From positions 121,894,709 through 121,958,708 of the forward strand of contig CM039462.1 of the NCBI GenBank assembly GCA_022414725.1: 64,000 bases of DNA, in the 5' to 3' direction. Shown here piece by piece: positions 2,858 through 61,847 of the stretch; position 1 is the first letter of the stretch; each line of letters starts with the position of its first letter. Source of the DNA: Microglena sp. YARC (lineage: Eukaryota > Chlorophyta > Chlorophyceae > Chlamydomonadales > Chlamydomonadaceae). Both the position numbers and the translations under genes were made by a program. The notes beneath the pieces are model-generated. The model worked only from the letters and a program-made list of their open reading frames with translations, did not search any database and was not told the origin of the DNA.

Positions 2858-5800
2858 TCGTTCGCTGGGTGCACAATCCCCTCCTGTCAGAGGAGCACCA
2901 CGCATTGGCGGAGGTGGGCCACAAGCTGATTGGCACTGCGCTGTACGAGGATGCAGTACGTGAGGACTCGTTCCCCCAGCAGTACACATTTCGCAACGTG
3001 TTTGCACACCTGGCCCTTGGGGGGTGCTATGAGCTAGTAGAGGACCTAGTCACCAAGCTCAATTTCTTGGGACACATCTTCGCTGCAGGTGGGGACAGGA
3101 TAACTGGGAGAGGCACCTATTTATTTCTGGATGTCGGGTTGGGAGGTTGGGTTGAAGGGCTGCGACCCAACCCCTGTGTTAGGGGGCTGTGACGCAATGC
3201 ACTACAATTGATGGTTTTGTGATTTTGCTGTCTTATTTTGGCCTTGGGGGCTATGAGGTAGCGGAGGACTTGGTCACCAAGCTAAATTTCTTGGGACACA
3301 TCTTCGCTGCAGCTGGGGACAGGATAACGGGGAGAGGCACCTATTTATTTCTGGGTGTTGTGTTGGTTTGAAGGGCTGCGACTGAACCCCTGTGCTGGGC
3401 GGCTGTGACGCAATCCACTACAATTGATGGTTTTGTGATTTTGCTGTCTGTCCATACCTTGGACTGGGGGGTGCTATGGGCTAGTGGAGGACTTTTGGCC
3501 AAGCTCAACTTCTTAAGACACATCTCCGCTGCATGACGGGAACTGATCCTGGGGAGGGGCACCTATATATATTGATGGGTCTTGTGTTGGGGGGCTGTGT
3601 TTGAAGGCTGTGTCTCAACCCACTGCAATCGATGGTATTACAATTGTGTTGTCTTATCTTGGCCTGGGGGGGTGCTATGAGCTGGTGGAGGTCTAGCTTA
3701 CCAATCTCAACTTCTTGGGGCCCATCTACGCTGCATGTAGGGAACTGATCCTAGGGAGGGGCACCTATATATATTGATGGTTCTTGTGTTGGGGGGCTGT
3801 GTTTGAAGGCTGTGTCTCAATCCACTGCAATCGATGGTCATATGATTGTGTTGTCTTATCTTGGCCTTGGGGGGTGCTATAAGCTAGTGGAGGTCTAGGT
3901 TACCAATCAGGGTACTACATTTTGTCAAATTGGTCAGCGCTTATAGCGCACAAACGTCAAATTAGTCAGCGATTTGCAGTGCAAAAAGCGCAAAAACTGT
4001 GCGCTGCGTCCACATGGGGTTGAAAAAACTGCGCAAAACGCGCAGTGGGGCTCAAAAAGCGTGCGCAAAATCGCGCTGCCAGACGCGCTTTGTAGTACCC
4101 TGTTACCAATCTCAACTTCTTGGGGCACATCTCCGCTGCATGATGGGAACTGATCCTAGGGAGGGGCACCTATATATATTGATGGGTCTTGTGTTGGGGG
4201 ACTGTGTTGACAGGCTGTAACTCAACCACTACGTTGGGCGGCTGTGACGCAATCCGCTACACTTGATGGTATTCTGATTGTATTGTCTTTGTGTATCTTG
4301 GCCTGAAGGGTACTATGAGTAGGGAACGGCAAATAATATTAGTGATTGAAAAACTAATATTAACTAATGTTATTATAGTGTCACAATAATATTAGTTTTT
4401 CAAATCAATTCGAATTTCTGGTGAGACGGCTTGTCGACTAATATTATATAATATTATATCATATTATTTATTCACTAATATGATATAACATAGCCGACCC
4501 CTAACTATGAGCTGGTGGAGGTCTTGGTTACCCAGCTCAATTTCTTTAAATGCATTAAACTGTGCTGCAAAAATAGAAAACTCATACCCCCAACTACGTT
4601 TTATGCTTTCAGGTTTCGGAAGGGAGGTCTTCATGGACTTGCTATTGTACTGCCCCAAAGATGGACGCTGCCCCATGGCACGCTGTGCAGTACGATGGCT
4701 TCTTGGTGACCATGTCTTCCTCCACCGTCATCCAAGAGCGACACTCCAACTGGCGCACGACCTGCCCACTAACAGCAGCCTCTCGCAGGCAGTTGCCAAG
4801 GCAAGTTGGTGATTTGGGGCTGGTTTGGGGGGATCATATTCCCAATTCTCACTCCTATCCTTACATCTATCCTCACACCAATCCCACATTCATTTACCAA
4901 GGCAAGTGTGTGGTGTAGGTGGATTATGTTTCCATTCCTCACAGCTATCCTCACACCAATCCCACATGCAGTTGCCAAGGCAAGTGTGTGGTGTAGGTGG
5001 ATTATGTTTCCTAGCCTCACAGCTATCCTCACACCAATCATCATTGTTAGGCTCACGTTGCACTGCTCACTGTGTTTTGTTCGGCCAATGCATTCAAGTG
5101 GCGCATGACCTGCCCGACAACAGCAGCCTCTCACAGGCAGTTGCCAAGGCAAGTTGGTTGTTTGGGGCAAGTTTAGGGGGGGTATATTCCCAATCCTCAC
5201 ACCTACCCTCACACTTATTCTCACACCTGTTCCCATCGGCTCACTCTGATCCTCTAACCAGTCCCCCCGCCCCCCCCCCACCCCCCTCACAGATGATGAT
5301 CAAGCCCACCGCATCCCCCCGCCCCCCCCCACCCCCCTCACAGATGATGATCAAGCCCACCGCATCCCCCCCCGCCCCCCCCACCCCCCTCACAGATGAT
5401 GATCAAGCCCACCGCATCCGCCATGTTCAAGCCTCAGGAGTGGCCCCTCTGCACCATGAAGTTGCTGGGCCACCGAGGGAATGTCCTATCCGTCTCATAC
5501 TCTCCCGACAACCAGATCCTGGCAAGTGCATCTGCTGATGCGGCAATCCTCTGGGATGCCTTGACTGGCAAGAAGCTTGGTACCCTACCAGGCGCCAGCA
5601 ACTTCGTGTGCTTCCCCCCCTGTGGGAACTTAGTTTTGACAGGCTCCAACTCAACGGTCTTCAAGCTGTGGCACGTGCAGACACGCACTTGCTTGCAATC
5701 GCCCAGTGGTCATGCAGGTCTCATTACATGCGCCAGCTTCAGCCCAGCAATAGAGGAGGTCAGAAATGAAATGAGCAATCCAGCAACTCACCCACCTGAA

Positions 5801-8800
5801 ATGAGCGATCAAGCAACCCACCTACCTGAAATGAGCAATCCACCCACCTACCCACACTCACTCACTCACACATCCTCCCACCCACTCTCACCCACCTACC
5901 CACCCGCCCACTTACCCACCCAGATACATACCCACCCACCCACCTACTCACTCAGATACATATGTGCATGCAGTGTCTTTTATTCCATGTTTCTGTAGGC
6001 CAGTTTGAGTAGGTACTTGGGTTACCCAAGCCTTATTTCAGGATTGTTGCACAGCCATTGCATGGCGGAGTGCAAAGTGCGGAGCCCGGGGGTTCCGAGG
6101 GTTCATGCATTGCCTTGCAACAACGGAATGGCAATTCAGTAGTGACGCGTAATTGACACAATTAAAACAGCTTGCACGCTGACATGTGTCTGCCTGTGCT
6201 TGCAGCAATGTTCCATGAAGCTCATCCTTGCCACCGGCTCTGACGATTGCAAGGTCATGCTCTGGGATTGCACACCTATAGCTCGGAGCAATGCAGACAG
6301 CAGCAGCCTAGCAGCCCCTGCTGGTGTTACCCTCCTATATGATTTGGATGCTCACAAGGCAGTTGTGCTGTGTGTGGCTGTGTCCCCAAGCCAGCACCAG
6401 GTGGCATCTGGGTCGATGGACAAGCGGGCATTGCTCTGGCAGCTTGGAAACGGGGGCGAGGCGAAATACGATGAGCTGGTGCATGCGTCCTCTGTGACTG
6501 TGGTTTCATACTCACTAAAGTGAGTTTCATATTTTCGATGAATGTTTGACCTCTATGTATGTGCAGTGACTAGGGGTCGGCTATGTTGTATCATATTAGT
6601 GAATAAATAATATTATATAGGCCAGGTCTCTCAGAATACTTGGGCGCCTACCTGCTTTGTCAAATGTATGTAGCTTTGCCTTATCCTGATCGCACATGGT
6701 ATCTAATTGTTTATATGTAAACATAAATGCCAGTCTTGGGATACCCAAACAGGCTGCAAGGGCTAAGTATGATCGTACTCATTCTGACATTTGATACTAA
6801 ATATGAAGATATGATCATACTCAATACCCACACCCCACACCTAACACCCCACACTCTACGCATCCCACACACACACACACCACACAATGAGGCAAAATTC
6901 CTGATCTCCCTCCCCTCCCCTTTACCCCCCCCCCCCCCCACACACACACACCCCCTACATTCAGTGGCAAGATCCTGGCAACAGGAACAGCGGCAGGTGA
7001 TGTGTTCCTATGGGACCCCCAGACACTCAGCCAGCTGATGTGTATTGCCCCTGCTAAGCCACATGATGTGGCCGTGAAAGCATGTACCTTCATACGGCAA
7101 TCGGAGCTCCTCGTCACTGCACATGGTTCTGTTTTCTCTCAAAGCAGGTAGGAGGATGTAGCCGACTATGCAGCCTGCCATGTAGCTGACAGTGTAGCCT
7201 ATGATGTAGCTCAAGTGTATTGCCCCTGCTAAGCCTTATGATGTGGCCGTGAGAGCTTGTACCTTCTCACCACAAACGGAGCCCCTCATCACTGCCCATG
7301 ATTTCTGTTTTTTCTCAAAGCAGGTAGGTGGATGTAGCTGACAGTGTAGCCTGTAATGTAGCTGATAATGTAGCTGCTAATGGTAACAAGCTCCCACCAC
7401 CACCACCACCACCACAATGAATAGCACAAGTAACAACAACAACAACAACAACAACAACAACTAATCCAAAATACACACGATTGCACAACTTGTTCAAAGT
7501 CACTATCCAAGCAACATACCTATGGAACAAAACAACTTCACTCTCGAAACTCTTTCATAGCTAAACAATAATTGTGTTGCTTATCTGCCCCTCCCCCCCA
7601 ACCCCCCAACACCCCCACACCCCCACACCCCCGGGCTGCAATGCACCCTGCCAGTGCAGCAAGGAAATGGAGGATGTCACGGCAAGACTGTCCGCCTGTT
7701 CATTCACACCTACAATCACACCTAAATTCACACCTAAATTCACACCTACATTCACACCTATATTCACACCTACATTCACACGTATATTCACACCAATCCT
7801 GTCGCACCCATCCACTCCACCACCCTCTCTGCAGCACTCATGTCGCCTGGGACACCAATACCGGTTTTGTGTTCTCTGAGACAGAGCTACTTTGAGGGGA
7901 GGTACATATCCTCACACCCATCCACACACCAACCCTCACACCAAACCTTGAACCGACCATCACACCCATCCACACACCAACCCTCACACCAAACCTTGAA
8001 CCGACCATCACACCCATCCACACACCAACCCTCACACCAAACCTTAAACCGACCATCATACCTTTGCACGCACCAACCCTCACGCCAAACCTTAAACCGC
8101 CAATCACACCTTTCCACGCCCCAACCCTTGCGCCAAACCTTGAACCGACCATCACACCTTTGCACGCACCAACCCTCACACCAAACCTTAAACCAACCAT
8201 CATACCATTGCACGCACCAACCCTCACGCCAAACCTTAAACCGACCATCACACCTTTCCTTGACCAACCCTCACGCCAAACCTTAAACCGACCATCACAC
8301 CTTTGCACGCACCAACCCTCACACCAAACCTTAAACCGACCATCATACCATTGCACGCACCAACCCTCACGCCAAACCTTAAACCGACCATCACACCTTT
8401 GCACGCACCAACCCTCACACCAAACCTTAAACCGACCATCATACCATTGCACGCACTAACCCTCACACCAAACCTTAAACCGACCATCATACCATTGCAC
8501 GCACCAACCCTCACACCAAACCTTAAACCGACCATCACACCTTTGCACGCACCAACCCTCACGCCAAACCTTAAACCGACCATCACACCTTTCCTCGCAC
8601 CAACCCTCGCGCCAAACCTTAAACCGACCATCACACCTTTGCACGCACCAACCCTCACACCAAACCTTAAACCGACCATCATACCATTGCACGCACCAAC
8701 CCTCACGCCAAACCTTAAACCGACCATCACACCTTTCCTCGCACCAACCCTCACACCAAACCTTAAACCGACCATCACACCTTTGCACGCACCAACCCTC

Positions 8801-10716
8801 ACACCAAACCTTAAACCGACCATCATACCATTGCTTGCACCAACCCTCACGCCAAACCTTAAACCGACCATCACACCTTTCCTCGCACCAACCCTCACAC
8901 CAAACCTTACACCGACCATCACACCTTTGCACGCACCAACCCTCTCACCAAACCTTAAACCGACCATCATACCATTGCACGCACCAACCCTCACGCCAAA
9001 CCTTAAACCGACCATCACACCTTTCCTCGCACCAACCCTCACGCCAAACCTTAAACCGACCATCACACCTTTGCACGCACCAACCCTCACACCAAACCTT
9101 AAACCGACCATCATACCATTGCACGCACCAACCCTCACGCCAAACCTTAAACCGACCATCACACCTTTGCACGCACCAACCCTCACACCAAACCTTAAAC
9201 CGACCATCATACCATTGCACGCACCAACCCTCACACCAAACCTTAAACCGACCATCATACCATTGCACGCACCAACCCTCACGCCAAACCTTAAACCGAC
9301 CATCACACCTTTGCACGCACCAACCCTCACGCCAAACCTTAAACCGACCATCACACCTTTCCTCGCACTAACCCTCGCGCCAAACCTTAAACCGACCATC
9401 ACACCTTTCCTCGCACCAACCCTCACACCAAACCTTAAACCGACCATCATACCATTGCACGCACCAACCCTCACGCCAAACCTTAAACCGACCATCACAC
9501 CTTTCCTCGCACCAACCCTCACACCAAACCTTAAACCGACCATCACACCTTTGCACGCACCAACCCTCACACCAAACCTTAAACCGACCATCATACCATT
9601 GCACGCACCAACCCTCACGCCAAACCTTAAACCGACCATCACACCTTTCCTCGCACCAACCCTCACACCAAACCTTAAACCGACCATCACACCTTTGCAC
9701 GCACCAACCCTCTCACCAAACCTTAAACCGACCATCATACCATTGCACGCACCAACCCTCACGCCAAACCTTAAACCGACCATCACACCTTTCCTCGCAC
9801 CAACCCTCACGCCAAACCTTAAACCGACCATCACACCTTTGCACGCACCAACCCTCACACCAAAACTTAAACCGACCATCATACCATTGCTTGCACCAAC
9901 CCTCACGCCAAACCTTAAACCGACCATCACACCTTTCCTCGCACCAACCCTCACACCAAACCTTAAACCGACCATCACACCTTTCCTCGCACCAACCCTC
10001 ACGCCAAACCTTAAACCGACCATCACACCTTTCCTCGCACCAACCCTCACGCCAAACCTTAAACCGACCATCACACCTTTCCTCGCACCAACCCTCGCAC
10101 CAATCCTTGCACCTATTCTCCCACCAATCTTCACCGGCTGAAATCCTTGCACCAATCCTCACAGTTATCCTGTCACTCATCCATCCACTCCACCCCCCTG
10201 CCACCACCCTCTCTGCAGCACTCTAGCCACCTGGGATACCAATACTGGCGCCATGTTATCTGAGACCGAGCTGCATGGTGGTGCAATCAACCAGATTGCA
10301 CAGACCTCTTCTGGTTGCACTTTAGCTGTGGCTTCTACGTACAACGTAGTGCGCGTTGTGGATACAGCCTCTTTGCTCTTCGGGGCTGTGGACTCTCCTG
10401 CCGGGGTATGTGGGTGTTTCGGGTGTATGTGGGGTTGGGTGTGGGGTGTGGGGTTGGTGTGGGGGTATGGGGGTGGGGGTGAAAAACAATGAATAGTAAA
10501 AAAAAACAATGTGGCCAAAACTATAGATTTGTTATTATGGGGGTGGGAGGGAAGGTGTGTTGGGGGGGGGGGGGGGGGGGGCAATGGTTCCATTTCCTTG
10601 TTTTACCCCAGCTCACTGACATGCACCTGTGTATCGCTCAGTTTGCCTTCCTTGCAGGACCTGGGCCCCCCCCTCCACACACACAAACACTCACACACAC
10701 TCCCCCCCCTCACTCT

Positions 10717-10752
<36 letters not shown>

Positions 10753-13700
10753 CCCCTTTCACTCCCCTCCTCACTCCTCCCCTCACTGCCACCCTACCTA
10801 GCAGGACCTGGACAAGTCTTTGAACTGTCTAATCTGCTTTGTGGGCCCCCTGGTTTCTGTGTGTATCGCATGGGGGAAGTTGGATAGAAAGACGGCAAAC
10901 AGCCCAGAGATGGCTGAAAAAACATGTAACATTTCAAATTATAATTATGAACGCAAGGTAAAATTAAAATTCCCCTAGGCTGGATGTATGAAATCGCCCA
11001 GAACGGCGTTGAAGTAATTGTATGTATGTTGTATTGTATTTTATGTATGCTACAGTCCAGGGGTAGGCCAAATAGGCTAAATTGACTTGCCCAACCGTGA
11101 CAGGAAGGGCTAAAAAGAAAAGGCAATGACGAACTGAACCCAAACAATAACTTTACAGATAGGGGCCCTGAGTTTGTGCCACAGTGATAATTAAATTCTG
11201 CAATATAATTGAATCATCACCAGTCAATAATAAAGCTGAAGCACCATGTAGCAATCCAATCCAATCTACCTTGCAGGCAACCTTGAACTACCAAACACCA
11301 TGTAACAATCCAGTCCAATCCAATCCAATATTGCTGGCAACCTTGACCTACCAAACACCATGTAACAATCCAATATAATCCTTCTTTGCAGGCAACCTCG
11401 ACCTATCAAACACCATGTAACAATCCAATCCAATCCAATCTTTCCTCGAAGGCAACCTCGACCTATCAAACACCATGTAACAATCCAATCCAATCTTTCC
11501 TCGCAGGCAACCTCGACCTACCAAACACCATGTAACAATCCAACCCAATCCAATCCAATCCAATCCAATCCAATCCAATCCAATCCAATCCAATCCAATC
11601 CTTCCTTGCAGACAACCTCGACCTATCAAACACCATGTAACAATCCAATCCAATCCAATCCAATCCAATCCAATCCAATCCTTCCTTGCAGACAACCTCG
11701 ACCTATCAAACACCATGTAACAATCCAATCCAATCCAATCCAATCCAATCCACCCTTGCAGGCAACCTTGGCCCGTCCTACCACTCACCGCAATAGCAGC
11801 GGCAACAGCCACATGCAAGCCATCTACCTGTCTCCCAAGGATGACATGGTAATTTGCATGACGAAGGACCGGCGGCTGCAGGTGTGGGATGTCACTGGCA
11901 CGCGAGCAGAGTGCACACACATGCAAGCGACCGTGCTGCCGAGCAACCACCACTGCCACCTCCTCTCTGTCCTCATCGTGTTCTGGTCTGAAAAAGGGTA
12001 AGTGGCAGGGGGGAAGCAGGGGGGAAGCAGGGGGGGCAGGCACTGTTTTTTTCTATGTCGTGTCGCCTTTCCGTCGCTGCATGGTGACACATGGGTCTGG
12101 CTAAAGTAGTCAGAAATGGCCCCCCAAACCCCCGCTTGGTGCAGTCACTGCCAGGTGTGGTATGCCCGCACATGATTGCATATGAGTTATTTGACATACA
12201 TCACATCTTCACTTGCGTCACTTTTTCATAGGAGACAAATTGTAGCTTTTATTTTCAGCTACCAGCAGCAGCTTCTAAGCAGCTCCCCTGACATGCTACC
12301 GACTCAGTATAAAAGTGGGCGAAGGGAGCAGTAGGCGACGGTAGCAATGGGCGATGGGTGGGCGACGGAAGGCCATTTGCTAACGATTTTCCGTAGCTCA
12401 GTGGGCGACGGAAGGCCGATTCTGACTGATTTTGCCAAACCCATGCGTCGCCATGTGACGACGGAATGACGACGCAGTGGCAACGCGTCATCGTAAAAAC
12501 AAATACTGCTACCCAGCCAGACCTGCAGCAACATAGAGCATCTCTAAGCTGTCAGAATCATCTTACCAGTACTGTTGACATTTTGGGGCTTAGGCCAGTG
12601 GCTGGCTCAGGGAGCTGCCTATAAGCTGCTGTTAGTAGCAAAAACTAAAAGCTATGAGCTGCCTATAAGCTGCTGTTAGTAGCCAAAACTAAAAGCTATG
12701 AGCTGCCTATCAGCTGCTGTTTGTAGCCAAAACTACAAGCCATGATATGTATCACTTCTGCATGCATCACTCTCACATACATCCCATTGGAATGAATCCC
12801 TTTGACATGCATCACTTACACCCCAACCATCCAACACCCACACCCAACGCCCAACTAACCGCCCAACACATTGCTGACACCCCAAACACACCACACACAA
12901 CACCGACAACCAACACCCGACAAACCATTATGCACATTGCTGACACCCCAACCACCCAACACACAACACCTAACACACAACACACAACACACAACACACA
13001 ACACACAACACACAACACACAACCCAACACATCGCTGACATCCCAACCATCCCAACCACCCCAGCCACCCCAACCACGTTGCTTGGCACAGTCACCACTT
13101 TGACATACATCACTTTGGTATACGTCACTTTGACACCCCAACCACCCCAACCACCCCAACCACGTTGCTTGGCACAGTCACCACTTTGACATACATCACT
13201 TTGGTATACGTCACTTTGACACCCCAACCACCCCAACCACCCAACCACGTTGCTTGCCACAGTCACTACCAGGTGTGGGATGCTCGCACAGGAGAGCATA
13301 TGAACAAGAAGGATGTGGAGTTTTCTCGAGGTTGGATCAGAGTCCGTAACTCAGGCCTGGGCTGGATGGAGTGCCAGGCTGTCAAGCCCAACTGCTCAAG
13401 TGCGTCACACCATAGCTTGTATTTTCAGCCTCCAGCAGCAGCCTCTATGCAGCTTTCCTGGTTTGCTACCCAGCCAAACCTATATAAACGCAGTTACACA
13501 ACTAAGTTGGGGTTCAGCCGCACAGTAAATATAAACACCATTACTCCATTAGTCGACAATCTAAAGTCTTGCCCGTCTGTCCTTACTCTTGTACACTGGC
13601 AGAAAACAAATGTTACATTTACAATGTTACATTCTTCTTCTTCTTCTTCTTCTTCTTGCCCACCTTATCCCCTTACACCTGCCCACCTTATCCCCTACAG

Positions 13701-16160: not shown

Positions 16161-16317
16161 CACTGGGGAAATAAGCTCCCCTGTGTATGGTTCTCTGGTT
16201 CTTCAACCTACGAGTGTACTCTGGTTCTTCAATCTAGGAGTGTACTATGGTTCTTCAATCTATCAGATCATCTCAAGGATTTGAATTTGAATTGTACCTG
16301 TCCGCCTGCATGGCTTA

Positions 16318-16420: not shown

Positions 16421-16510
16421 ACAAGTCCTAGGCGGCGGCGCAAGCGACGCAGAAAATTGGCTGGGAGCGTTGGCCATCAAAAGGACAGGTGGCAATGGAA
16501 TGGAGCGGAC
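16420..16510 (+). mobile_element. Element R1, 5' fragment
   Basis: AAGTCCTAGGCGGCGGCGCA, then AGCGACGCAGAAAATTGGC and GACAGGTGGCAATGGAA, match the start of R1. It switches at about 16505 into a reverse copy of repeat family E (16505-16800). Confidence 0.6.
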
Positions 16511-16839
16511 TCTGGGCTGCTCACCATCTGCCAATGCCAAGCTCCCCCATGCGATACCCACGGAAGCCAGGGAGCACACCAACCAGACGAGCCCAAGAAG
16601 CTTAAGACAAGCTCATGAACAACCGTACACTGTTAGTAACAGCTTGTTTAATTGGAAATTACGCAAATGGCATCTCTGATTCACCCTATCGGTTATCGGC
16701 ACTTATCAGCACTTATCCGCATTGATTGAAAAGTTAGCATTCTTACGCCTTGCAGCAGGGTGGGGAGTTCAGGGAACATTCCAGTTCAATTGCTGTGGGG
16801 AAGGCTTCCGCCATTGACACTACATAGGAATGCATTTAT

Positions 16840-22162: not shown

Positions 22163-22202
<40 letters not shown>

Positions 22203-22264: not shown

Positions 22265-22299
<35 letters not shown>

Positions 22300-37766: not shown

Positions 37767-37970
37767 AGTCTAGGACGGCGTTGCAAGCGGAAAATCGGCG
37801 GATAGTGATATTGGAACGACAGGTGGCAACGAAATCGAGCGGACCTAAGCCAGTTACGAGACAGTTGGCTGACGTGTCAGGCTTAGTGTGGTCAGCCGGT
37901 CGCACACACAAACAGACAACGGGGTGACCCTGGGGGCTCCCGCCCCCCAGAAGTGGGGGCTCTGCCAAAC
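37767..37970 (+). mobile_element. Element R1
   Basis: AAGTCTAGGACGGCGTTGCA, AGCGGAAAATCGGCGGATAG, GACAGGTGGCAACGAAA, GTGTCAGGCTTAGTGTGGTC, GGTGACCCTGGGGGCTCCCG and GTGGGGGCTCTGCC. Confidence 0.75.
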
Positions 37971-39689: not shown

Positions 39690-39968
39690 TTTCAGCGAGG
39701 TGCAGCTTCGTGGCAGCTTGCCTGCCTGGCTGTTCACCCTAACATAAAGCAAGCTAGTGCAGCTAGAAGCTGGTATTGTCAGCTATCTAGCACTGCTGAA
39801 ATATTTGCGTGTTATTCACTAGTAGACAGCAATATTGGGGTTGCTTTGGGGGGCAATAAAAGCTGCTAGTAGCACCCCAAAGGCTGCTAGGAGCACCATA
39901 GTGCTACATAAAAGTGCGACGCTGGTTTCTTTTCTTGGAAATTCCCTGGTCTGCCTGTGTGTGATTCA
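39690..39968 (-). other. PAQR gene 3' flank containing MITE and repeat fragments
   Basis: 39690-39800 holds the left half of a family A MITE. 39837-39968 (AGCACCATAGTGCTACATAA and neighbouring text) recurs with the last exon at 63185-63393 and in pieces at 30990-31075 and 59870-59960, so part of this 3' flank is itself dispersed. Confidence 0.5.
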
Positions 39969-48900: not shown

Positions 48901-50686
48901 TGGTGGTGGTGTGGTGGTGGTGGTGTGGTGGTGGGTGGGGTGCTCTCACCAATGAGATGCGTGGTGGTGGTGGTGCTGCTGTGGTGGTGGGGTGGTGTTG
49001 TGGTGGTGGTGTTGCTGTGGTGGTGGGGTGGGGTTGTGGTGGTGGTGGTGGGTGGGGTGCTCTCACCAATGAGATGGGTGGTGGTGGTGGTGCTGCTGTG
49101 GTGGTGGGGTGGGGTTGTGGTGGTGGTGATGGGTGGGGTGCTCTCACTAATGAGATGGGTGGTGGTGGTGGTGGTGGTGTTGCTGTGGTAGTGGGGTGGG
49201 GTTGTTGTGGTGGTAGTGGGTGGGGTGCTCTCACCGATGAGATGGGTCCACACAGCCCCTGTCTCGTTGTGCCACTTAAACAACGACCACAGGCTCTCCT
49301 TCAAAGCTAGGTTGCTGCGGTAGTATTTCTTGATGAACTCGTTGTCCTGCATGTGGAATTTATTGCACATCAAATTAAAGATTTTGACACAGCATCATTG
49401 GCACCTTGTTAAATTAAAGGTTTCAACACATAATCATTTGCACCTCGTTAAATCTAAATCTTTGTCTGCCTAATTGTCCGAAAGCGTACAACAGTGGTGA
49501 ACATGATAACACCGATGATTGAGCATTAAGAAAAGTGACTGCTGAAAATTGAGAACAATAGTTGTTACAAATTGAGAATGTTGGTTAAACTTGGAGAGCC
49601 ATGCATGCATGCCAGGAATTTTGTTTCCACTATGTATAGCGATCGCCAGTTTTGACCCTGTTTCAGCGAAATTATCGCTATACAATAAACAAAGTTTTAT
49701 GCGTCCATTAAATGGCCCTAAAAAGCTACAAAAGGGTATGGAAAGCACTAAAACGCTGTCCCTGAGGGACCCCTAAACCCATAGAGCTAGGAAAAACCCA
49801 CTTCCAGATTTGAACAAAAAAACTGCTGCATGCATGCAACATGCGCTCCTATCTTAACCTATTACATTACATTACATTGTCATTGACAGGCCATTGTTGG
49901 CCCAAGATAAGCTTACAACCACCGGGAGGGGTCTTCAAACAAACCCTACAAAAAGATAGACAGTATTGCAGCATGCAAGCACTACTTCCATATAAGCACG
50001 CAAGAGAGAATGCAGCAAGCAAGCACTACTTCCATTTCATACACATGTATTGCTTTGTATGTGTGTGATTGACTTCTGTACTTGGAAGTGTGTTGTAGAG
50101 GAGATAACACTTTCCATGGTTACTCACCACGCAGAAGGTGAGCAGCCTGCAGCCTGATAGACCAGGTAACGATAACACCTGGTGGGGCGTGGTATAAAGG
50201 GAGCCCCGTCTTATGACGGAAGGGAACGGGCTGCTACTTTACCTGGACAAAGCTACCATGGCTGTTGATAGCGACCGCGAACACTAAAGCACACCCGTAG
50301 GGATTCGGACTCGGCTGCTTCTTTGTTCAAGGAGCTCAAGCATTGAGCCATTCGTCAAAATGGGGATATAGACCATGTAATCAATCCAATCCAACATGTT
50401 GTATTATAAGCAACAGCCCATAGCTTTCCTTTTCCGCTACGAGCCACAGATTCTAGGTAGCTCCCTGAGCCAGCCACTGGGCTAAGGCCCAAGATTTCAA
50501 CGGTATTCAAAATATGATTTTGTCAGCTTTCAGATGCACTATGTTGCTAGAGGTTCGGCTGGGTAGCTAGCCATGGGATCTGCCTAGAAGCTGCTGCTGG
50601 TAGCGGAAAAGAAAAGCTATGCGACATCCTGGTTCTGGTGCGGCAAATAGGTATATCTGGAATGACTAGATAGATCTAAACATCTA

Positions 50687-50729
<43 letters not shown>

Positions 50730-50732
50730 ATC

Positions 50733-50779
<47 letters not shown>

Positions 50780-52493: not shown

Positions 52494-55072
52494 ATGTTCA
52501 AAAAGCCGTTTAGCATCAACCTGAACAATAAAGTGAGCGGTGCCGACAGGAAGAAGCTGAGAAGGTTTGTTGGGGTAGGGGCATGTGTGTTCATGTATAC
52601 GAGTGTTAGTGTTAGTGATTGTGTGTGTGTGTTGGTTGGATGTGAGTTGGGGATGTGTGTTGGGAATGTGTGTGGGTGTGGGTGAGGGGTCATAGGGTGT
52701 GTGTGTTGGGGGGCGACTCATGGGTAGGGTGTCGCTGAGAATGGGTCTAGGGATGGAGTGATGTGGGTGGGGTCTCATTGGGGAATTAGTCTGATGGGTG
52801 GTTGTGTGGTGGTTGGTGGGTCTCCTGGGGAGGGTGTGACTAAGAATGAGGTGGTTGGGGTGGTTGATGTGGACGAGGTCTCGTGGAGGGATGGGTCTGA
52901 TGGTAGTGATGGTGGTGTGTATGTGTATGTGTGTGTGGGGGGGGGGGGGAGATGAGTCTCATGGATGACTTGGGGCATGGCTTTTTTCTCCGGCTACGTG
53001 CAGCAGCTTCTAGGCAGCTCCCTGATCCAGCCACTTGGCTACGCCACTGGGCAGATGACTCTGTTAGCTTCCAGATGCGCTAAGTTGCTTCGGGTTTGGC
53101 TGGGTTACAAGCCAGGAAGGCTGCGTAGAAGCTGCTGCTCGTAGCGGAAAAGAAAAACTGTGGTTTGGGGGCAGGGGTGATAGTGATTGGGGGGAGGGTG
53201 TGCGAGGGTGAATTGAGGGTGGTGGTGGTCGGGTGGGGGTGGAGGGGGGTTACATGGGGGGGAATGGGATCGAGTGAAGTTGGGATGGGTCTTATGGGTG
53301 GAGGGGTATGGGGAGGATGTTCTTGTGAGGAGGGGGAATTGTGTGTGTGGGGATCTCAGGAGGAGAGGGGTGGGGTTTGGGTGTGGGGGCCCATGTGGCG
53401 TGCGAGTGTGTGTGTTGGGTGGGGGGGGGGGTGGGGGGCGGGGTCTGTAGTGATGAATGTCTTGTGGGAGAGCAATGTGGGGTTATGGCACTGCTGCAGT
53501 AGGTCTGCAATTCAGCGGATGATTTGGATCTGGATCTCGTAGTTTGTATATCGCACTTCTACGTTTTCAGGCACAATTTCCGACAATTCTCAGAATTCTC
53601 AGAAATTCTCAGAATTGTTGATTCTCAGGCTTAATTGTCAGAATTCTCAATTTCGAGGTGCACTGCGAACTATAAATGTGTTTTGAAAACCCCAATCCAA
53701 ATCATCGGCTGAATGGCTACAAATCCTGGGTAGCATGGTCAAGGAGGAGTGCTCTCCATGTAATGACTACGTAATGATAACGCCTGGTTGGGCGTTGTCG
53801 TGAGGGAGCTCCGTCTTACGGCGGTACGGAACGAGCTGCTACTTTACCTGGACAAAGCTACCATGGCGGTTGACAGCAACCGCAAACACTAAAGCGCACC
53901 TGTAGGGATTCAATCCCCGCACCTTCATAATTTCAACAAGTTCTCCATGTAGTGTATTGTGCATGTATGGGTGTGGCTTTTATTCTTTTCTTTTGTTGTG
54001 GTGGCGCTGGTTGTCGTTGGCAGTGGTAGTGGCAGTGTGGCACTAGTTGTGATTTTGTTTTGCTGTTCATGGATTGTATTGATGTTGGTGGCATTATTGG
54101 TGTTGGTGTTGTGTTTGCAGGTGTTGGTGTTGTGTTGTTGGTGGTGGTGGTGTTAGTGTTAATGTTGTTGCGTTCGTTGTTATTGGTGTCAGTGTTGATG
54201 GTCCTATTGGTGGTGGTGGTGGTGGCGTGTTGTTGTTGGTGGTGGTAGTATTAGTGTTGGTGTTGTTGTGTTATTTGGTATTGGTGTTGGTGATGATAGT
54301 GTTGGTGTTGTGGTGGTGGTGGTAGTATTAGTGTTGGTGGTGTTGTGTTGGTGATGGAGTTGTGTTTTTGTTTTTGTTGGTAGTATTAGTGTTGTTGTTG
54401 TGTTGGTGGTGGTGGTAGTATTAGTGTTGGTGGTGTTGTGTTGGTGGTAGTATTATTGTTGGTGTTGGTGCTGTGTTGGTGGTGTTGGTGTATTGGTGTT
54501 GTGTTGGTGGTGTTATGTTGGTGTTCTGTTGGGTTGGTGTTGTGATGGTGATGTGTTGTTGTTGCATTGGTGTTGAATTGGTGTTGTGTGGGTGTTTTGT
54601 TGTTGGTTTTGTGTTGGTGTTGTGTAGGCGTTTTGTTGGTGGTGGTGTGTTGGTGTTGGTGGTGTGTTGATGTTGTTCATATTTGTGTTGGTGTTGGTGA
54701 ACACATGAGTGTTGTAAGTCATAAGTCCCCACCACTCCCCACCCTGCACCCCTTCAGAGGTTTGGAGAATGCATTCGAGGGCTTGAGCGCTGAGGAGCTT
54801 GATGCGTTGCTCCCGAGTAAAGCCGGTGATCTGGAGGCCCTCAAGCTCCCGGCCCCTAGCCGCACAGTCATATACACGCTGGACAAGGTAGGTGGGCTCT
54901 AGTGAACGGTGTTACACAATTAAGTTGCTGCCCATTGGTGGTTGGCCCCAGTACTTGCAAGCAAACAGGCTGGCCCCCTGAACATCACGCCTTGTAATAT
55001 GGCGTACTATTTCTTTCTTCCTTTCTTTCTTCCTTTCTTTCTTCCTTTCTTTCTTCCTTCCTTTCTTTCTTC

Positions 55073-55129
<57 letters not shown>

Positions 55130-55167
55130 TTCCTTTCTTTGTTTCTTTCTTTCTTTATTCCTTTCTC

Positions 55168-55217
<50 letters not shown>

Positions 55218-55232
55218 TTCCTTCCTTCCTTC

Positions 55233-55267
<35 letters not shown>

Positions 55268-55268
55268 T

Positions 55269-55300
<32 letters not shown>

Positions 55301-57180
55301 GCAGTCCAGCTGCACAACAACGTAAACACCTTAATTCTGAAGCGAAAAACAATTAGATAGCTAGGTGGACTCTCTGGCACTGTGTTGTTCTAGGGCTGCG
55401 CGTGTCAGCTTCCAGCCAGCTCCATTAGCTAGCAACTTGGTCTAAACCAAAGCTTCCCGCCCCTACCCGTGGTTTGGACCCTATTGTTTGTCCTGGGTGT
55501 GTATTACGGGTGATACTCTGCGTGTTGATTAACATTTTGGGTGCATTGACTCACTAACACCCTCTCGCACGGTGTGTGCTAAAGAAGTCTGCCATCTTCA
55601 CCGAAACACTGGACAAGGTAGGTGTGCTTTCTGTATCATCCTTTCAAAACTGTTGTCCAACATTTAATGTCCCATGCTCCTTTTGGAGCGATTTGTTATT
55701 GCGCCCACGTTGTGTGAATGGAAATTGGTGCGAGTGGAGAGTTAAAATCAACTGGGAAAAAGTGGAATGGAAATTGGTGTGAGTGGAAATTACAGCTTCA
55801 TCAGCTTTCTTTGTTCGGGCACGTGATGCATCAGTGCAGCTGTGTCAGCTTTCTTTTTTCCGGGTACATGTAGCAACAATGCAGCTCCGACAGCTGGCTT
55901 TTCAGCCAAACCTGAAGCAACTTAGTTCACCTGGAAGATGACACGATAAGCTCTTTCGCACAGCTGAAATCTGTTATTTGCTTACAACCTCCAACCTCCA
56001 ACCTCTAACCTCTCCAACCTCCAACCATCAACCCCTCATACCCCACCTCCGACCTCTAACCTCCAACCATCAAACTTCTATCTCCCACCTCTAACCTTTA
56101 ACCTCCCACCTCTATCCTCCAACCTCCAACCTCTAACCTCTAACCTTCAACCATCAATCTCCCATCTCCCACCTCTAACCTCTAATCTCTAACCTCTAAC
56201 CATCAAACTCCCATCTCCCATCCTTCACCTCTAACCTCCAACCTCCAACCTCTAACCTCTAATCATCAACCCCCAACCTCTAACCTCTAACCTCCAACCT
56301 CCCACCTGCCGTCTCCCACCTCTAACCTCCAACCATTAACCCCAAAACTCCAACCTCGAACTTCCCATCTCCCACCTCTATCCTACAACCTACAACCTCC
56401 TGCCCCTCCTCCTCTCAACCCTATCCCAGGTTCCCATTATCGTGGACTCCAGTGGGAAAGGCGACTTGTTCCCGACTATCTTTGCACTGTGGCGAGCACC
56501 GAACATGCTCCCCAAGGTCAATGTCAAACATCCCTTTGTGACGCAGTATCTGGTCAATGGTGCTGACCTCATGCTTCCAGGTGGGCAGGGATGGCTGTTC
56601 TGTGTTGTGCCTTGCTGTGCTGTGCTGTGTTGTGTTGTGCTATCATTTGGATGCCTGGCTGAACTGGTCTGAGCTGGGATGGGATGGCTTCTAAAGGTCA
56701 ACGGCGCTGACCTCATGCTTCCAGGTGTGGGGGGATGGCTGTTCTGTACTGTGCTGTGTTGTGCTATTATTTGGATGGCCTGGCTGGACAAAACTGGTCT
56801 GAACTGGGCTGGGCTGGGCTGAACTGGGCTGGGCTGAACTGGCCTGAACTAGGCTGGTCTGAATTGCGCTGGGATGGGCTGAGCTGGGATGGGATGGAGG
56901 ATTTTAGCGAGGGGAATCAGGTTTGTAGAAGAGGAGGGATGCAGGGGCAGGGTGAGTGGGGATGGGGGGTGGGCTGGGTTGGGGTGGTGGGGGGTGTGGG
57001 GGGGGGGGATTTGGGTGGAAGGTGGAAAGCAGAGAGCTGGTTTCTGTCCCTGTCCCTGCTTCCTATCCCTGTTGTGCTGCTGTACCCGTACCTGCACACC
57101 ACACCCCACACCCACACCAGCACCCACACCTGCCGACGCCCACATCTGTACTTCCACCTCAATGTAGGGCACCTATTTGT

Positions 57181-57213
<33 letters not shown>

Positions 57214-58848
57214 TGCACATACACATACATGATAGCTTTTCTTTTTGGCTCCGAGCAAACAGCTTCTAGGCGGCTCCCTTGATTGGCTATTTAGCTGAAT
57301 CTATCACAGCCTTGTGCGCCTTGAAGCTGGCAAGAAGTGCTGAAATAATTTGCTGTAGCACAGTAGCAAGCCTCGAGGAGCTGGTGAAAGCTGTTGCTCT
57401 GAGCCAAAAAGAAAAGCCCTGACATATACCTGACCGTAGCCTGCTTTCCTGATTACAGAGAAAAGCTGTGTCCCAACCCATCCATGATACCCCCCCCCCC
57501 CCCCCTTCACACACACACACAAACAACACACACACACACACACACCACCACCACCACCATCAGACCCAACCCATCCATGGGACCCAACTTCCCCCCACCC
57601 CCCACCCCCCACTCCCCCCACCCCACACTGACCCGAGCCTGCTTTCCTAATGACAGGTGCCGATGTGACAGGTGTAGCTGAAGCTGTAGCTGAATTTCAG
57701 AAGAGAGATATGGTGAGCGTGTGCGTCCCTGGCAACCCAGCCCCCCTTGCTATTGGTGTAGCGGGGATGAGCCTCGCACAAGCTCGGGAGAAGGCTGCGG
57801 CTGGACTGAAGGGCAAGCTGGTGGAGGTGGTCCAAAACTATGGAGACTACTTGTGTGAGTGTGCGATACATGGAGGGGTGAGGGGGGGCCTGCATGGACA
57901 CTGGGTGGGTCAAATGTGAAGGGGGGGCTTAGTAGGATTGTGGGGGAGGGGAAGGGAGGTGCAGGGGGGGGACCTGCCTGAGCATTGGGTATATGAGTTG
58001 TGGGGGTAGGTTTTGGAAAAAGGTGGTCCAAAGCTATTGGACTACTTGTGTGAGTGTGCAATGCATGGAGGGGGGGAGGGGGGCCCTGCGGGGTTACTGG
58101 TTGGGTCAGATGTGAAAGGGGGGCTTGGTAGGATTGTGGGGGAGGGGAAGGGAGGGGTGCAGGGTGGAAGCTGCCTGAGCATTGGGTATATGAGTTGTGG
58201 GGTTAGGTTTTGTAAAAGTTGGTCCAAAGCTATGGAGACTGCTTGTGTGAGTGTGCAATGCATGGAGTGGTGGAGGGAAGGGGGGGGGGCCTACAGGGGC
58301 CCTGGGTGGGTCAGATGTGCTAGTTGGTGGAGGTGGTCCCAAACTATGGAGACTGCTAAAAGCTTAGCCAATGCCCTTACGGGCGTAGCATTGGCTATGC
58401 ATTTTACGGTGTGTAGTGGGCGCATGAAGGGTGAAAGGCAGGGTTGGTATAACTGTAGGGGAGGGGGAGGGAGGGGTGGAGGGTGGAACCTGCCTGGACA
58501 TTGGGTATATGAGTAGTGGGGGCAGTTTTTGTAAAAAGTGGCCCACAAATATGGAAAAGCTTGTGTGAGTTTGCAATGCATGGAGGGGTGGAAGGAGGAG
58601 GGGGGGGCCTGTTTGAAGTATTGGGTGGGTCAGTTGTGGGAGTGGGTTGTATGCAAAGTGGTCGCAAAGCCGTGTGAGGCTGATTGTTGTAAGTTTCGCA
58701 GTGTCCTTAGAGGATGGGAGGGAGGGGAGGGATCCCCCTGTCTGCGTGTTAGGTGGTCAGTTGTGGAGGGTGTATGCAAAGTGGTCCAAAGCTATGGAGA
58801 CTGCTTGTAAATGAGTTTGCAATGCATCCAGGGGTGCAGAGAGGATAT

Positions 58849-58903
<55 letters not shown>

Positions 58904-61847
58904 ACCTTGCGCGAGCTTTGTGTGGATCAGCCTAGGAGGGTGGGGTTGAGCAACTACACGTATTGCATTTTGCTTGCTTGTTGTGTTTTTGCTTTCAGCT
59001 GGAGAAAGGGTTGAAAAAGACCCCCAGGATGTGTTTCAGTGGGCATTTCTTTTGTGTTAACAATGGCTTATTCTTGTTTTTTTACAATGGCTTGTCTTTG
59101 TGTTTTTGCTTCTTGTTAAACAATGGCTTATCTTGTGTTTAACAATGGCCTAACAATCTTGCTTTGTTAACAATGGCTTGTCTTGTGTTAACAATGGCGC
59201 TTGTAATTGGTGTCTTGTGTTAACAATGGTTTCTTGTGTTAACACAATGGGCTTGTCTTAACAATGTTAACCAATGTTAACAAATGGGGCTTTGTTACAA
59301 TTGTTACCAATGCTTTATCTTGTAGTTAACAATAGGGCTTAATCTTATCTTGTGTTTAACAATGGCTTATCTTGTGTTAACATGCTTTTTGTGTTAACAA
59401 TGGCTGTCTTGTGTTAACAATGGCTTATCTTGTGTTAAATGGCTTATCTTGTGTTAATGGCTTATCTTGTTGTTAACAATGGCTTGTCTTGTGTTAACAA
59501 TGGCTTAATCTTGTGTTTAACAATGGCTTATTCTTGTGTTAACAATGGCTTATCTTGTGTTAACAATGGCTTGTCTTGTGTTAACAGGTAACAATCTTAT
59601 CGTTAACAATGCCTTATCTTGTGTTAACTGGCTTATCTTGTGTTAACAATCTTATGGGCTTATCTTATAAAATGCTCGTTGTTAACAATGGCTTATCTTG
59701 TGTGTTAACAATGCTAATTATCTTGGTTAAACCAATGGCTTGTCTTGTGTTAACAATGGGGCTTTATATGGCAATTCTTTCTTGTTCACCACCAACTTGC
59801 TTGTCTATAAACAATGCAATAGTAAGATCATATAATCACCATAATCATAGCAGGGGTTTCTTGAAGGTGCTTTTGGGGGCCTCCAACTCCTCGGCTATTT
59901 TGGGGGGCCCAAAAGCTGCTAGTAGCACAATGGTGCTACGAAAAATACAATGCTTCATGCTTCCTCAGGAAAAACTGTTTATCAGTAGGTACCGTGGCCA
60001 CATCATATGCTGTTGACCAAAGGCAAGGGATGATACAAAATGACTATCTACAAATTGCATCTTATGATATTTAGTTATATAAATGGTAGCTTAAGCCTAG
60101 TCAGGACTGCTGGCATCAAATGATGTCAGTATGATGGAACATGATATCAAATGATATCATTTATTTGCCGTTCCCTATTTATCAATCACCCTGATCTCCC
60201 ATGTACCAATCTGTACAACTTTAACCGCAGGGTCTGATATTGGTGGGAGGGCAGTACCAAAATGTGTGGTTACGTGTACAAATGGAGTTGTACCGCTTGC
60301 GTACTGCCAGCAGATGTACTCCTTGATGGCGACATGATTGCGAGGAGGAGGAAGGAGCGGCCCAGTACAAAGCAGGCTGGTACTGCAGACTCTGCTGGTG
60401 GGAGAGTCGGTACCGAGTTGGTTAGTCAGTTAGGGGCCATGGCTGTGTCCACATCAGCAAGGGGGGCCGCGCCCAACACTGGTGAGGAGGAGGAGGAAGC
60501 TGATGAGAAGTTAGAGACGGCCGTTGACATGGATGAGCTGTTGCAAACGTCACTCCTTCAAGCGCTGCACAGAAGTGTGAAGGAAGACATGCTGCCCCTG
60601 AATAGCAGCCAGCTGTGGAACGGGCCACTGTGCTGCACCTAGCAGACCTTTTGGCAAGCACACTAGGTATGCACAGACTGGGTGTGGAGGAGGGCTGAGC
60701 TAGTTAGGGTTGGGTTGGCGGGGGTTTGTGGCCGGGTGAAGTTGGCAGATTGGTGTGTTCCTGCAGTATTGTGTTTATGTTGCAAATCCAGTGGGAAAGC
60801 CAACACAGGTTGAATGACTTGCCCTCGACATCAGCTAGCTTACTGAACGGCCATGGCTGCACTAATGCTATGACCTTTTGGAGAGCACACTAGGTACGCA
60901 GACTGGGATGTGTGGAGGAGGGCTGAGCTAGTTAGGCTTGGGTTAGGATTGGTGTGGCTGGGTGAAGTTGGCAGATTGGTGTCCTGCAGTATTTTTTTTT
61001 TTTTTTTTGGTGTTTATGTTCAATCCAGGGAACGCCAAACACAGTTGAATGGATTTGCCCTTGATATCAGCTAGCTTTGCGAACGGCCATGTTGCTGTCT
61101 AGCAGGACTGTTTGTTTTCCAACATATTGCGCCCAGTATTTGTGTTCGTTATGTTGCAGTCCAGGGGGAACTACTAAATGAGCTTGCCCTCAAGTTCAAA
61201 ACTACACATACACGAAGGGTTCGTATGAACATAGTCGCAAGCTACCAACAGACCAGGGACTCGTTTGTCGCCATCAAATTGTTTGACATCCATCGCTTGC
61301 CTGAAGTTCAATTGTGAGAAACTGCGCTCTGTTAGCTTGCATACAGTAGCAGCCAACTTTGGAACGGGCATTTGCTGCTTACAGACCTTTTGCAGCACAC
61401 TAGGTACTGCAGACTAGGGTGTTTGCCCTACGTATATTTTTTATGTTAATAATATTAGTCAGAGAGGTGGCCTGGTTGCGGCTAGGCTGGCTGGTGGGAA
61501 TTAGGCTGGGCTGGGCTTGGGTTGGGTTATGGTTGCAGGTCCGGGGGAAAGTGGGTTGGGGAAGTATCAGCGGAGGGGATTAAGAATGTCTCGTGGCTGA
61601 TTGCCTAGCTGACACTGTTTCTCATTGTTCTGCACACTATTTGCGTTCTTGAAAACTAACTTGATAAACATAACATTCCTAGTCATAACTTGCGTTCTGA
61701 ATTTGTTTTGAAAAATCACCCGCAGTGCCAAAATCAGTACTGCGGTTTCTCACACAGAAACCTCTGAGCCAAACTGTCCTTCCCGGTGCGCACAGATGTT
61801 AAGAAGAGCAAGCACAAGAAGATGTCCAAGTGGCTGCAGCGTGAGGT
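52494..61847 (+). CDS. EIF2D: Translation initiation factor eIF2D (ligatin), 3'-incomplete, with frameshifts
   Basis: Exons: 52494-52564 (ATG), 54758-54887, 56430-56580, 57657-57854, 60231-60666 (frame disturbed), 61796-61847. Family hallmarks: start MFKKPFSIN ... GADRKKLRR; LSAEELDALLPSK; YTLDK / VPIIVDSSGKGDLFPTIFAL; VNGADLMLPG; PUA domain QKRDMVSVCVPGNPAPLAIG, then GDYL-W; MDELLQTSLLQALHRSVK; STL / DVKKSKHKKMSKWLQRE. eIF2D delivers tRNA to the 40S P site without GTP and recycles post-termination ribosomes in the cytosol. Phases join at each boundary. In exon 5 the reading frame shifts at least twice (near 60270-60300 and near 60630), so this copy is either decayed or carries consensus indels. 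The C-terminal SUI1 domain is not seen before 64000. Confidence 0.8.
52979..53160 (+). mobile_element. MITE family A
   Basis: GGCTTTTTTCTCCGGCTACG, TGCAGCAGCTTCTAGGCAGC ... GTAGAAGCTGCTGCTCGTAG, CGGAAAAGAAAAAC. Confidence 0.8.
53508..53716. mobile_element. MITE family D (209 bp)
   Basis: CAATTCAGCGGATGATTTGG and CCAAATCATCGGCTGAATGG form about 20-bp inverted ends. The interior has repeated CAGAATTCTCAG words. Confidence 0.75.
53760..53935 (+). repeat. Dispersed repeat family L, copy 2
   Basis: GTAATGATAACGCCTGGTTG, GAACGAGCTGCTACTTTACC, TGGACAAAGCTACCATGGC, GTAGGGATTCAATCCCCGCA. Confidence 0.65.
53950..54710. repeat. GTTGGTGTTGTG array in the first eIF2D intron
   Basis: Degenerate repeats of GTGTTGGTGTTGTGTTGGTG with GTGGTAGTATTAGTG blocks (three copies near 54240, 54325 and 54412). 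Frames on both strands are artefacts. Confidence 0.85.
54935..55325. repeat. Family K repeat running into a CTTT microsatellite of about 300 bp
   Basis: ATTGGTGGTTGGCCCCAGTA ... GGCGTACTATTTCTTTCTTC, then CTTTCTTTCTTTCTTT with CTTC variants to 55305. In all three long family K copies a simple or A/T-rich tract follows TACTATTT, so the tail of the element may seed it. Confidence 0.85.
55390..55990 (+). repeat. Mixed repeats: MITE B start, family J, eIF2D donor copy, MITE A part
   Basis: 55390-55460 is a family B left end. 55480-55600 is family J, inverted relative to 21680. 55604-55626 (CACTGGACAAGGTAGGTGTG) copies the end and donor of eIF2D exon 54758-54887. 55838-55985 is a diverged family A piece. 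Confidence 0.6.
55985..56410. repeat. Degenerate 7-bp array (CCTCTAA / CCTCCAA)
   Basis: About 420 bp of CCTCTAACCTCCAACCTCCAA-like 7-mers directly before the acceptor of eIF2D exon 56430-56580. It is a very long C/T-rich tract on the coding strand. It resembles, but is not, an algal telomere repeat. Confidence 0.85.
56580..56950 (+). repeat. Copy of eIF2D exon 3 end and CTGGGCTGAACTG array
   Basis: AAGGTCAACGGCGCTGACCT, CATGCTTCCAG|GTGTGGGG at 56694-56731 duplicates the exon end (AATGGTGCTGACCTCATGCT, TCCAG|GTGGGC). GGGCTGGGCTGAACTGGGCT repeats follow (56790-56905). Confidence 0.8.
57180..57215. repeat. Poly-C run (about 33)
   Basis: An uninterrupted C tract in an eIF2D intron. Its exact length is uncertain, as for any homopolymer. 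Another C run is near 57490. Confidence 0.9.
57233..57418 (-). mobile_element. MITE family A, diverged
   Basis: ATAGCTTTTCTTTTTGGCTC, CGAGCAAACAGCTTCTAGGC ... GAGCTGGTGAAAGCTGTTGC, TCTGAGCCAAAAAGAAAAGC. Confidence 0.7.
57830..58815 (+). repeat. Five to six tandem copies of the end and donor of eIF2D exon 4
   Basis: GTGGTCCAAAACTATGGAGA, CTACTTGT|GTGAGTGTG is repeated with donors near 57855, 58049, 58248, 58566 and 58810. A copy without its donor is near 58345. Period is about 195-320 bp. GGGGGGACCTGCCTGAGCAT, TGGGTATATGAGTTGTGGGG accompanies several copies. The first three keep GTGAGT. Confidence 0.88.
58848..58902. repeat. Poly-G run (about 53)
   Basis: An unbroken G tract, the longest homopolymer in the window. 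True length is uncertain. Confidence 0.9.
59030..59775. repeat. Degenerate 21-22 bp array (TTAACAATGGCTTATCTTGTG)
   Basis: About 30 imperfect copies with many single-base gains and losses fill most of this eIF2D intron. The indel-rich pattern differs from the cleaner arrays earlier in the window. Confidence 0.85.
60000..60177. mobile_element. MITE family F
   Basis: CATATGCTGTTGACCAAAGG ... TAGTCAGGACTGCTGGCATC ... GATATCATTTATTTGCCGTT, CCCTA. It resembles 63625-63790 and, inverted, 33677-33836. The stretch just before (59870-59960) has the GCTGCTAGTAGCAC fragment shared with the PAQR 3' flank. Confidence 0.6.
60640..61420 (+). repeat. Three copies of the end and donor of eIF2D exon 5
   Basis: GACCTTTTGGCAAGCACACT, AG|GTATGC at 60666 recurs at 60894 (GACCTTTTGGAGAGCACACT, AG|GTACGC) and 61404 (GACCTTTTGCAGCACACTAG|GTACTG). 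CAGACTGGG-type and TGGAGGAGGGCTGAGCTAGT text follows the first two. Diverged SINE-like S pieces lie between. Confidence 0.82.

Follow-up and report, generated by a model that had tools for sequence, protein, structure and literature searches.

The stretch of DNA considered here, 64,000 nucleotides of contig CM039462.1 (positions 121,894,709 to 121,958,708) from Microglena sp. YARC (hereafter the window), carries four multi-exon green-alga nuclear genes, which code for a WD40 protein (g1), an unnamed protein (g2), an adiponectin-receptor-like protein (g3), and eIF2D (g4). The genes were modelled manually on the basis of their reading frames and splice sites, and a single open frame runs through nine introns in g1, six in g2, and nine in g3. 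A homology search with g1 returned matches dominated by other WD40 proteins, while a similarity search with the second half of g2 returned the alga's own protein only. Support for the exon ends comes from two EukProt proteins. Protein P0001 includes all 537 residues of the g3 model identically and implies the same 18 of 18 junctions, its N-terminus being 24 residues longer than that of the model, and P0241 matches the g2 model at 10 of 12 junctions. In g4, exons 5 and 6 are uncertain; its intron 5 is kept in the set of 60 window junctions and lies outside the larger set of 102 junctions used later. Exon 6 of this gene (60309-60666), which supplies the donor exon edge at 60666, changes frame with respect to the expected eIF2D frame, and a long G run is found close to it, near ~58850-58905. 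The frame change may be either a sequencing error or the mark of a damaged gene.

Copies of exon edges were identified by aligning the outermost 40 exon bases, i.e., exon sequence only, to the adjoining intron and to 60 dinucleotide shuffles of each intron. By this strict test, 22 of the 60 junctions have their exon edge copied in the neighbouring intron, each with a score above all 60 shuffles, and the claim of the initial annotation that introns of all four genes hold copies of exon edges together with their splice sites is borne out (Table 1). Both boundary types are affected, with 10 of 30 donors and 12 of 30 acceptors, and by gene the copied junctions number 7/18 (g1), 4/12 (g2), 8/18 (g3), and 3/12 (g4). 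The count stays at 22/60 when the two deviating g2 junctions are swapped to those of P0241, and among the 28 junctions confirmed by EukProt proteins 11 are copied. Fifteen of the 18 junctions listed at the outset pass the strict test, whereas those at 49235, 54887, and 11762 fail it, their spanning copies holding mostly 9-28 exon bases. Moreover, reading phase places a g1 donor at 7147 and not, as first given, at 7125. Seven junctions beyond that list also pass, namely 15097 and 45983 (both borderline, with a score of 17), 28165, 26030, 46936, 46805, and 44306.

Table 1. Genes of the window and the exon-intron junctions with copied exon edges (window coordinates; g1 to g4 as in the text).
Feature	Position	Strand	Description
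g1	2858-15309	+	WD40 protein; 5' end beyond the window
g2	29283-20021	-	Unnamed protein; no Pfam match
g3	51882-39969	-	HlyIII/adiponectin-receptor family protein
g4	52494-61844	+	eIF2D, N-terminal part; partial gene
g1 intron 1	3029..4180	+	Exon end and donor 3088; copies at 3313, 3535, 3737, 4143; SW 38; 80-92%; GT kept in 1/4
g1 intron 2	4740..5190	+	Exon end and GC donor 4800; copies at 4902, 4980, 5149; AG/GC kept in 3/3
g1 intron 2	5262..5422	+	Acceptor and exon start 5396; 52-bp array, copies at 5292, 5343; 95-100% identical
g1 intron 5	7088..7364	+	Exon end and donor 7147; copy at 7324
g1 intron 5	7800..10272	+	Acceptor and exon start 10219; copy at 7834; between the two, a 48-bp minisatellite of ~46 units (7912-10108)
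g1 intron 6	11242..11790	+	Acceptor 11762 array; 8 spanning copies, one of them weak (at 10657), mostly with 9-28 exon bases; strict test failed
g1 intron 7	12118..13304	+	Acceptor and exon start 13263; copies at 12144, 13091, 13177
g1 intron 9	14143..15103	+	14-base repeat through donor 14149 and acceptor 15097; candidate gained intron; acceptor-side exon edge (15097) copied, SW 17, borderline
g2 intron 6	20199..21070	-	Acceptor and exon start 20220 (20199 in P0241); copies at 20408, 20692, 20896, 21057
g2 intron 4	24219..24945	-	Exon end and donor 24889; copies at 24747, 24219; this intron also holds the exon 4 end and donor once in antisense (inverted), at ~24340-24410 (position read from sequence)
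g2 intron 2	25990..26215	-	Acceptor and exon start 26030; copy at 26173
g2 intron 1	28125..28270	-	Exon 2 start 28165 copied; non-spanning; SW 20; end coordinate read from sequence
g3 intron 8	40940..42060	-	Acceptor and exon start 40980; copies at 41100, 41585, 41704, 41823, 41942, 42038; AG kept in 6/6
g3 intron 6	43083..43335	-	Acceptor and exon start 43135; copy at 43294; 92%
g3 intron 6	43483..44400	-	Part of exon 6 (44324-44400) at 43483-43559; 70/77 identical; SW 20; short of the junction (44306)
g3 intron 5	44479..45090	-	Acceptor and exon start 44514; copies at 44781, 45051
g3 intron 5	45240..45837	-	Exon end and donor 45777; copy at 45257
g3 intron 4	45975..46244	-	Acceptor 45983; weak, low-complexity copy at 46204 with 8 exon bases; SW 17, borderline
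g3 intron 4	46640..46845	-	Exon end and donor 46805; copy at 46647, GT now TT
g3 intron 3	46877..47474	-	Acceptor and exon 4 start 46936; copies at 47098, 47285, 47467; AG kept in all
g3 intron 2	48860..49250	-	Donor 49235; copies at 49147, 49066, 48949, 48869; 11-13 exon bases; strict test failed
g4 intron 2	54876..55630	+	~23 bases across donor 54887; copy at 55618; SW 19, weak; strict test failed
g4 intron 3	56551..56765	+	Exon end and donor 56580; copy at 56725
g4 intron 4	57825..58845	+	Exon end and donor 57854; copies at 58050, 58247, 58565, 58689, 58811; GT kept in 4/5
g4 intron 6	60607..61425	+	Exon end and donor 60666; copies at 60894, 61404

The location of the copies was controlled at a fixed score threshold of 17, one exon shorter than 40 bases being excluded. 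In the adjoining intron and in the same orientation, 22 of 58 exon edges find a match, against one of 50 in the intron flanking the exon on its opposite side, one of 58 in the antisense of the adjoining intron, and one of 1864 in the other introns of the window; with reversed introns the exon-edge score never rises above 14. Chance similarity is therefore ruled out by the shuffles, the reversed introns, and the antisense and wrong-side controls. Because the same-orientation copies are confined to the adjoining intron, they are local tandem duplications across the exon-intron border, the origin that had been proposed for them. The same confinement rules out transposon dispersal or retro-copying of exon pieces as the main cause, and the pattern of introner elements, near-identical copies with splice sites spread over introns of unrelated genes, is likewise not seen with exon-edge probes, which hit other window introns in one of 1864 tests. 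A few dispersed copies of exon pieces do exist: the terminal exon of g3 together with 3' flanking sequence (39836-40062) recurs at 63149-63386, 23 kb off on the same strand, with 201 of 220 positions identical. In addition, a copy of the final stretch of g2's last exon (20014-20094) lies in the 3' flank at 19490-19570, ~0.5 kb away, with 68 of 80 identical.

At 19 of the 22 copied junctions there is a copy that spans the splice site, and at 15097, 28165, and 44306 the copied exon piece is non-spanning. The spanning copies, mostly 75-95% identical, number 1 to 8 per junction; the initial annotation was right that copies are often multiple, but not in its range of two to nine. The tandem units of the window are minisatellite-sized, going from 48 to 202 bp, with examples of 52 bp (5262-5419), 86 bp (13051-13266), 119 bp (41541-41960), 158 bp (43084-43398), and 187 bp (46993-47474). 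With increasing depth from the 3' end of the exon the match rate falls from 10/29 through 7/29, 4/28, 3/27, and 1/25 to 0/21, and from the 5' end it goes from 12/29 through 6/28 and 1/28 to 0/26, with no matches beyond ~100 bases. This fading with depth is the pattern expected from border-crossing duplication with random end points. Regarding intron length, the median is 1144 bp for introns with a junction copy against 806 bp for those without, which is not a significant difference (p = 0.22), and all five introns of 282-447 bp are free of such copies.

Some other features of the window deserve mention in their own right. Exons 4 and 5 of g3 (46805-45983) hold a coding repeat of 21 bases (residues DGVHALQ); it extends through intron 4, which gives the impression that duplication has reached the protein too. 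Within intron 6 of the same gene, on the opposite strand, a fragment of a heavy-metal-associated (HMA) domain exon that contains stops is found at 43575-43990; it carries 2.5 tandem 131-bp copies, which include an acceptor-like CAG, and it resembles a piece captured from another gene. Finally, an element of ~200 bp recurs in both orientations with shared end motifs at ~2236-2440, ~16430-16600, ~30300-30510, ~37770-37970, ~61850-62100, and ~62690-62890, and has the appearance of a short inverted-repeat transposon.

The large number of copied junctions (22/60 in the window and 25/44 at the kinesin loci described below) could suggest that duplication is focused at exon edges, e.g., through AG/GT motifs or through slippage or repair with a preference for borders, a possibility raised by the initial annotation. 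The same is suggested when the 22/60 exon edges are set against complexity-matched 40-mers from intron interiors, copied at 25-27%, a comparison weighed less because the targets of the intron points are shorter. The other measurements speak against an edge focus. Among 102 junctions, i.e., those of 51 introns (the window without g4 intron 5, plus the kinesin introns), the exon edge is copied at 47, the first or last 40 intron bases at 56, and intron bases 100-140 at 62, with complexity unmatched, so that counting junction repeats against intron-interior repeats reveals no excess at the border and exon edges are the least copied. Where the intron edge is copied, the exon edge is copied as well in 41 of 56 cases (0.73), and the corresponding rate at arbitrary intron points is 682 of 934, again 0.73, for complexity-matched probes; with all probes and no such matching, the rate inside introns is 0.82 against 0.73 at borders. 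In the window, the 40-base tiles copied within 1.2 kb amount to 58% in deep intron, 39% across junctions, 27% at exon edges, 11% in exon interiors, and 22% in intergenic DNA, and for complex tiles only, the figures are 38, 33, 27, 8, and 21%, respectively. Duplication is blind to the exon-intron border, exon edges are not special, and a focus on them, which these data do not support, is very unlikely.

By these tiles, introns of the window hold local duplications at roughly double the intergenic frequency, an excess not expected from duplication that is purely position-blind. It could be caused by an effect of transcription or by transposons inserting between genes.

The copies are not peculiar to this region. 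A search for the kinesin motor domain gave 128 exon-level matches, 69 of which were used, and these include 11 pairs, in 7 clusters, in which a single exon has been copied in part at a distance of no more than 1.5 kb. Seventeen kinesin loci on several contigs were read, and 22 introns were modelled at 14 of them by profile continuity and splice consensus, 4 of the 22 after trimming stop-containing hits; the weak models are the second intron of L039 (15 residues off the profile), the second of L026, and the first of L036 (both with low scores). Exon edges are copied at 25 of the 44 junctions and at 12 of the 14 loci. Three loci with 10 junctions (L026, L027, and L030) were chosen partly for their visible copies, and without them the count is 19/34; it becomes 17/30 when L036, which shows match overlap, is also excluded. 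Loci L028, L034, and L035, chosen for their copies, stand outside every count. The controls gave no match in the antisense (0/44) or in the intron at the exon's opposite end (0/16), and 11 of 880 tests against the introns of other kinesin loci matched, likely from paralogy. In one stretch with a chaperonin gene (PF00118), two clean introns gave one copied junction of four, the antisense score of one intron being at the threshold (17); a third intron has a copied donor and a poor acceptor fit, and a fourth pair gave no model.

On a broader scale, 20 stretches of 10 kb taken at even intervals, part of them with gaps, were pooled, and 49% of their 40-mers are copied within 1.2 kb (31% of the complex ones), the same measure giving 44% and 29% for the window. 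Single stretches range from 4% to 100%, i.e., duplication is uneven. In local duplication the window is ordinary for this 568-Mb genome, and the phenomenon is genome-wide as far as sampled. This recurrence also bears on whether the copies are an artefact of assembly or of misplaced exon ends. The frameshift in g4 exon 6 and the long homopolymers near 58.9 kb indicate that local sequence errors may exist. However, the window copies mostly differ by 5-25%, copies are present at 12 of 14 further loci, and the agreement of g3 with P0001 and the copies at EukProt-confirmed junctions speak for the exon ends as placed. We regard an artefact as extremely improbable.

An alternative origin for the copies is the model of Rogers, in which introns arise by duplication of exon segments bearing AG/GT and the copies are remnants of that birth. 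Its signature is present in g1 intron 9, where the motif GTATGAG/GTGGGCA (7 bases before and 7 after) runs through both donor and acceptor, and in the intron of kinesin locus L029, where 13 bases are common to the two sites and the intron's 3' end repeats, in frame, the conserved residues closing the upstream exon. For comparison, 870 mismatched donor-acceptor pairs of the window share runs of at most 9 bases, a length that two further kinesin introns reach. These two introns, 1 of 30 in the window and 1 of 22 at the kinesin loci, are candidates for birth by tandem duplication, and to this extent the initial annotation's appeal to intron gain fits. Of the 52 introns, the remaining 50 share at most 9 bases between donor and acceptor, and the extra exon-edge copies sit inside long introns beside the border, as expected from growth of an existing intron. 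As a general account of these introns the Rogers model is very unlikely; since 50 of the 52 are without the signature, duplication mainly lengthens existing introns and may sometimes create one.

The copied splice sites were considered in the same manner. With weak copies counted in, the splice dinucleotide is intact in 20 of 26 donor and 31 of 37 acceptor copies, against 18.1 and 25.8 expected from the rest of the copy, or 51 of 63 against 43.9 in total. Strong conservation of the copied sites is ruled out by the weakness of this excess. The copies might still be retained for a function, as decoys, splicing enhancers or silencers, or alternative exons, a reading favored by the excess itself and by the 7 of 52 intact decoys that would give an in-frame open extension. 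The excess is, however, small, too little to claim function, and copies within one array are not independent; use of any of the other 45 decoys would cause a frameshift or introduce a stop, and duplications deep in introns are at least as common. Retention for function is for us quite unlikely. Because 45 of the 52 decoys would break the protein, a strong choice of splice site must occur, and from the open frames, protein similarity, and the two EukProt proteins we infer that splicing uses the exon-proximal site.

Overall, it is highly probable that the observed structures derive from frequent tandem duplication that ignores the exon-intron border, with splicing hiding the copies that cross it. 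Short stretches, from tens of bases to ~200 bp, would be duplicated in tandem very often and regardless of gene structure, by slippage, break repair, or unequal exchange. Copies within introns or between genes would accumulate, presumably as neutral changes, and those wholly within exons would mostly break the protein and be lost. A border-crossing copy would be shielded if splicing keeps the site nearest to the exon body, namely the first donor or the last acceptor, and the extra exon fragment with its decoy site would then become intron. Arrays formed in this way would grow, shrink, and decay while the introns lengthen, and a duplicated unit would occasionally supply both ends of a new intron. 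The idea of the initial annotation that selection keeps those duplications that leave a working splice site fits the data. A lineage-wide extension is more tentative, and we place it somewhat below an even chance: border-blind duplication might be the main engine of intron growth genome-wide and a steady source of new introns, leaving buried exon edges and decoys in a large share of introns, with the exon-proximal site reliably picked.

Intron lengthening is rarely visible because intron sequence decays fast. In this alga, whose Chlamydomonas relatives have long introns too, raw duplication events are still readable at nearly half of the tested junctions. Moreover, the 52 intact decoys beside real sites offer a natural experiment on how one of several near-identical sites is selected in splicing, and g1 intron 9 and the L029 intron are places to look for intron birth.

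Intron gain by tandem duplication, from Rogers (1989) to ATP2A1 and potato RdRp, involves segments that bear AG/GT or cross a boundary, the potato duplication lying across intron 1/exon 2 (PMC4974935). These cases yield a new intron, whereas 50 of the 52 introns of the alga are without the signature. In human genes of segmental duplications, internal tandem repeats are found at exon-intron boundaries, and minisatellite expansion alters intron structure; unlike those of the alga, these repeats are recent, vary between paralogues, and often make alternative introns (PMC2812944). Relatives of Chlamydomonas have unusually long introns, with medians of 198-343 bp, which the alga exceeds with 1129 bp in the window and 1030 bp at the kinesin loci; the driving mechanism is left open there, and the accessible portion of that paper holds no tandem-duplication account of it (PMC8226300). 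A literature search found no report of boundary-spanning tandem repeats in green algae.

The closest counterparts are the "mirages" of lancelets, reported in Adh3, the globins BflGb6 and BflGb9, TnC, and PGBD5, which are minisatellite-like repeats spanning an exon-intron boundary (PMC3087553; PMC3902484). They occur at 5' or 3' boundaries with units of 10-160 bp, 81-100% identical in BflGb6 and many with AG/GT; regular splicing is apparently undisturbed, their length is unstable, and a role in intron gain has been proposed for them (PMC3087553; PMC3902484). The novelty that the initial annotation saw in such repeats was therefore overstated, as they had been described in lancelets and humans. 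The alga resembles the lancelets in having minisatellite-sized units with both exon and intron sequence (19 of 22 junctions), at donors and acceptors alike, and in that many copies, not all, keep AG/GT (20/26 donor and 31/37 acceptor copies). The two systems differ in that mirages are known from single animal genes, for which RT-PCR and haplotype data have been obtained and a model of intron gain proposed, while the algal copies are known from the DNA of one assembly. In the alga, on the other hand, they are counted at 47 of 102 junctions in four genes and 14 kinesin loci, and the border, having been tested, plays no special part. For this prevalence we met no counterpart figure in the accessible literature on mirages. 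The structure is of the mirage kind, and what is new is its occurrence in a green-alga lineage and at nearly half of the tested junctions.
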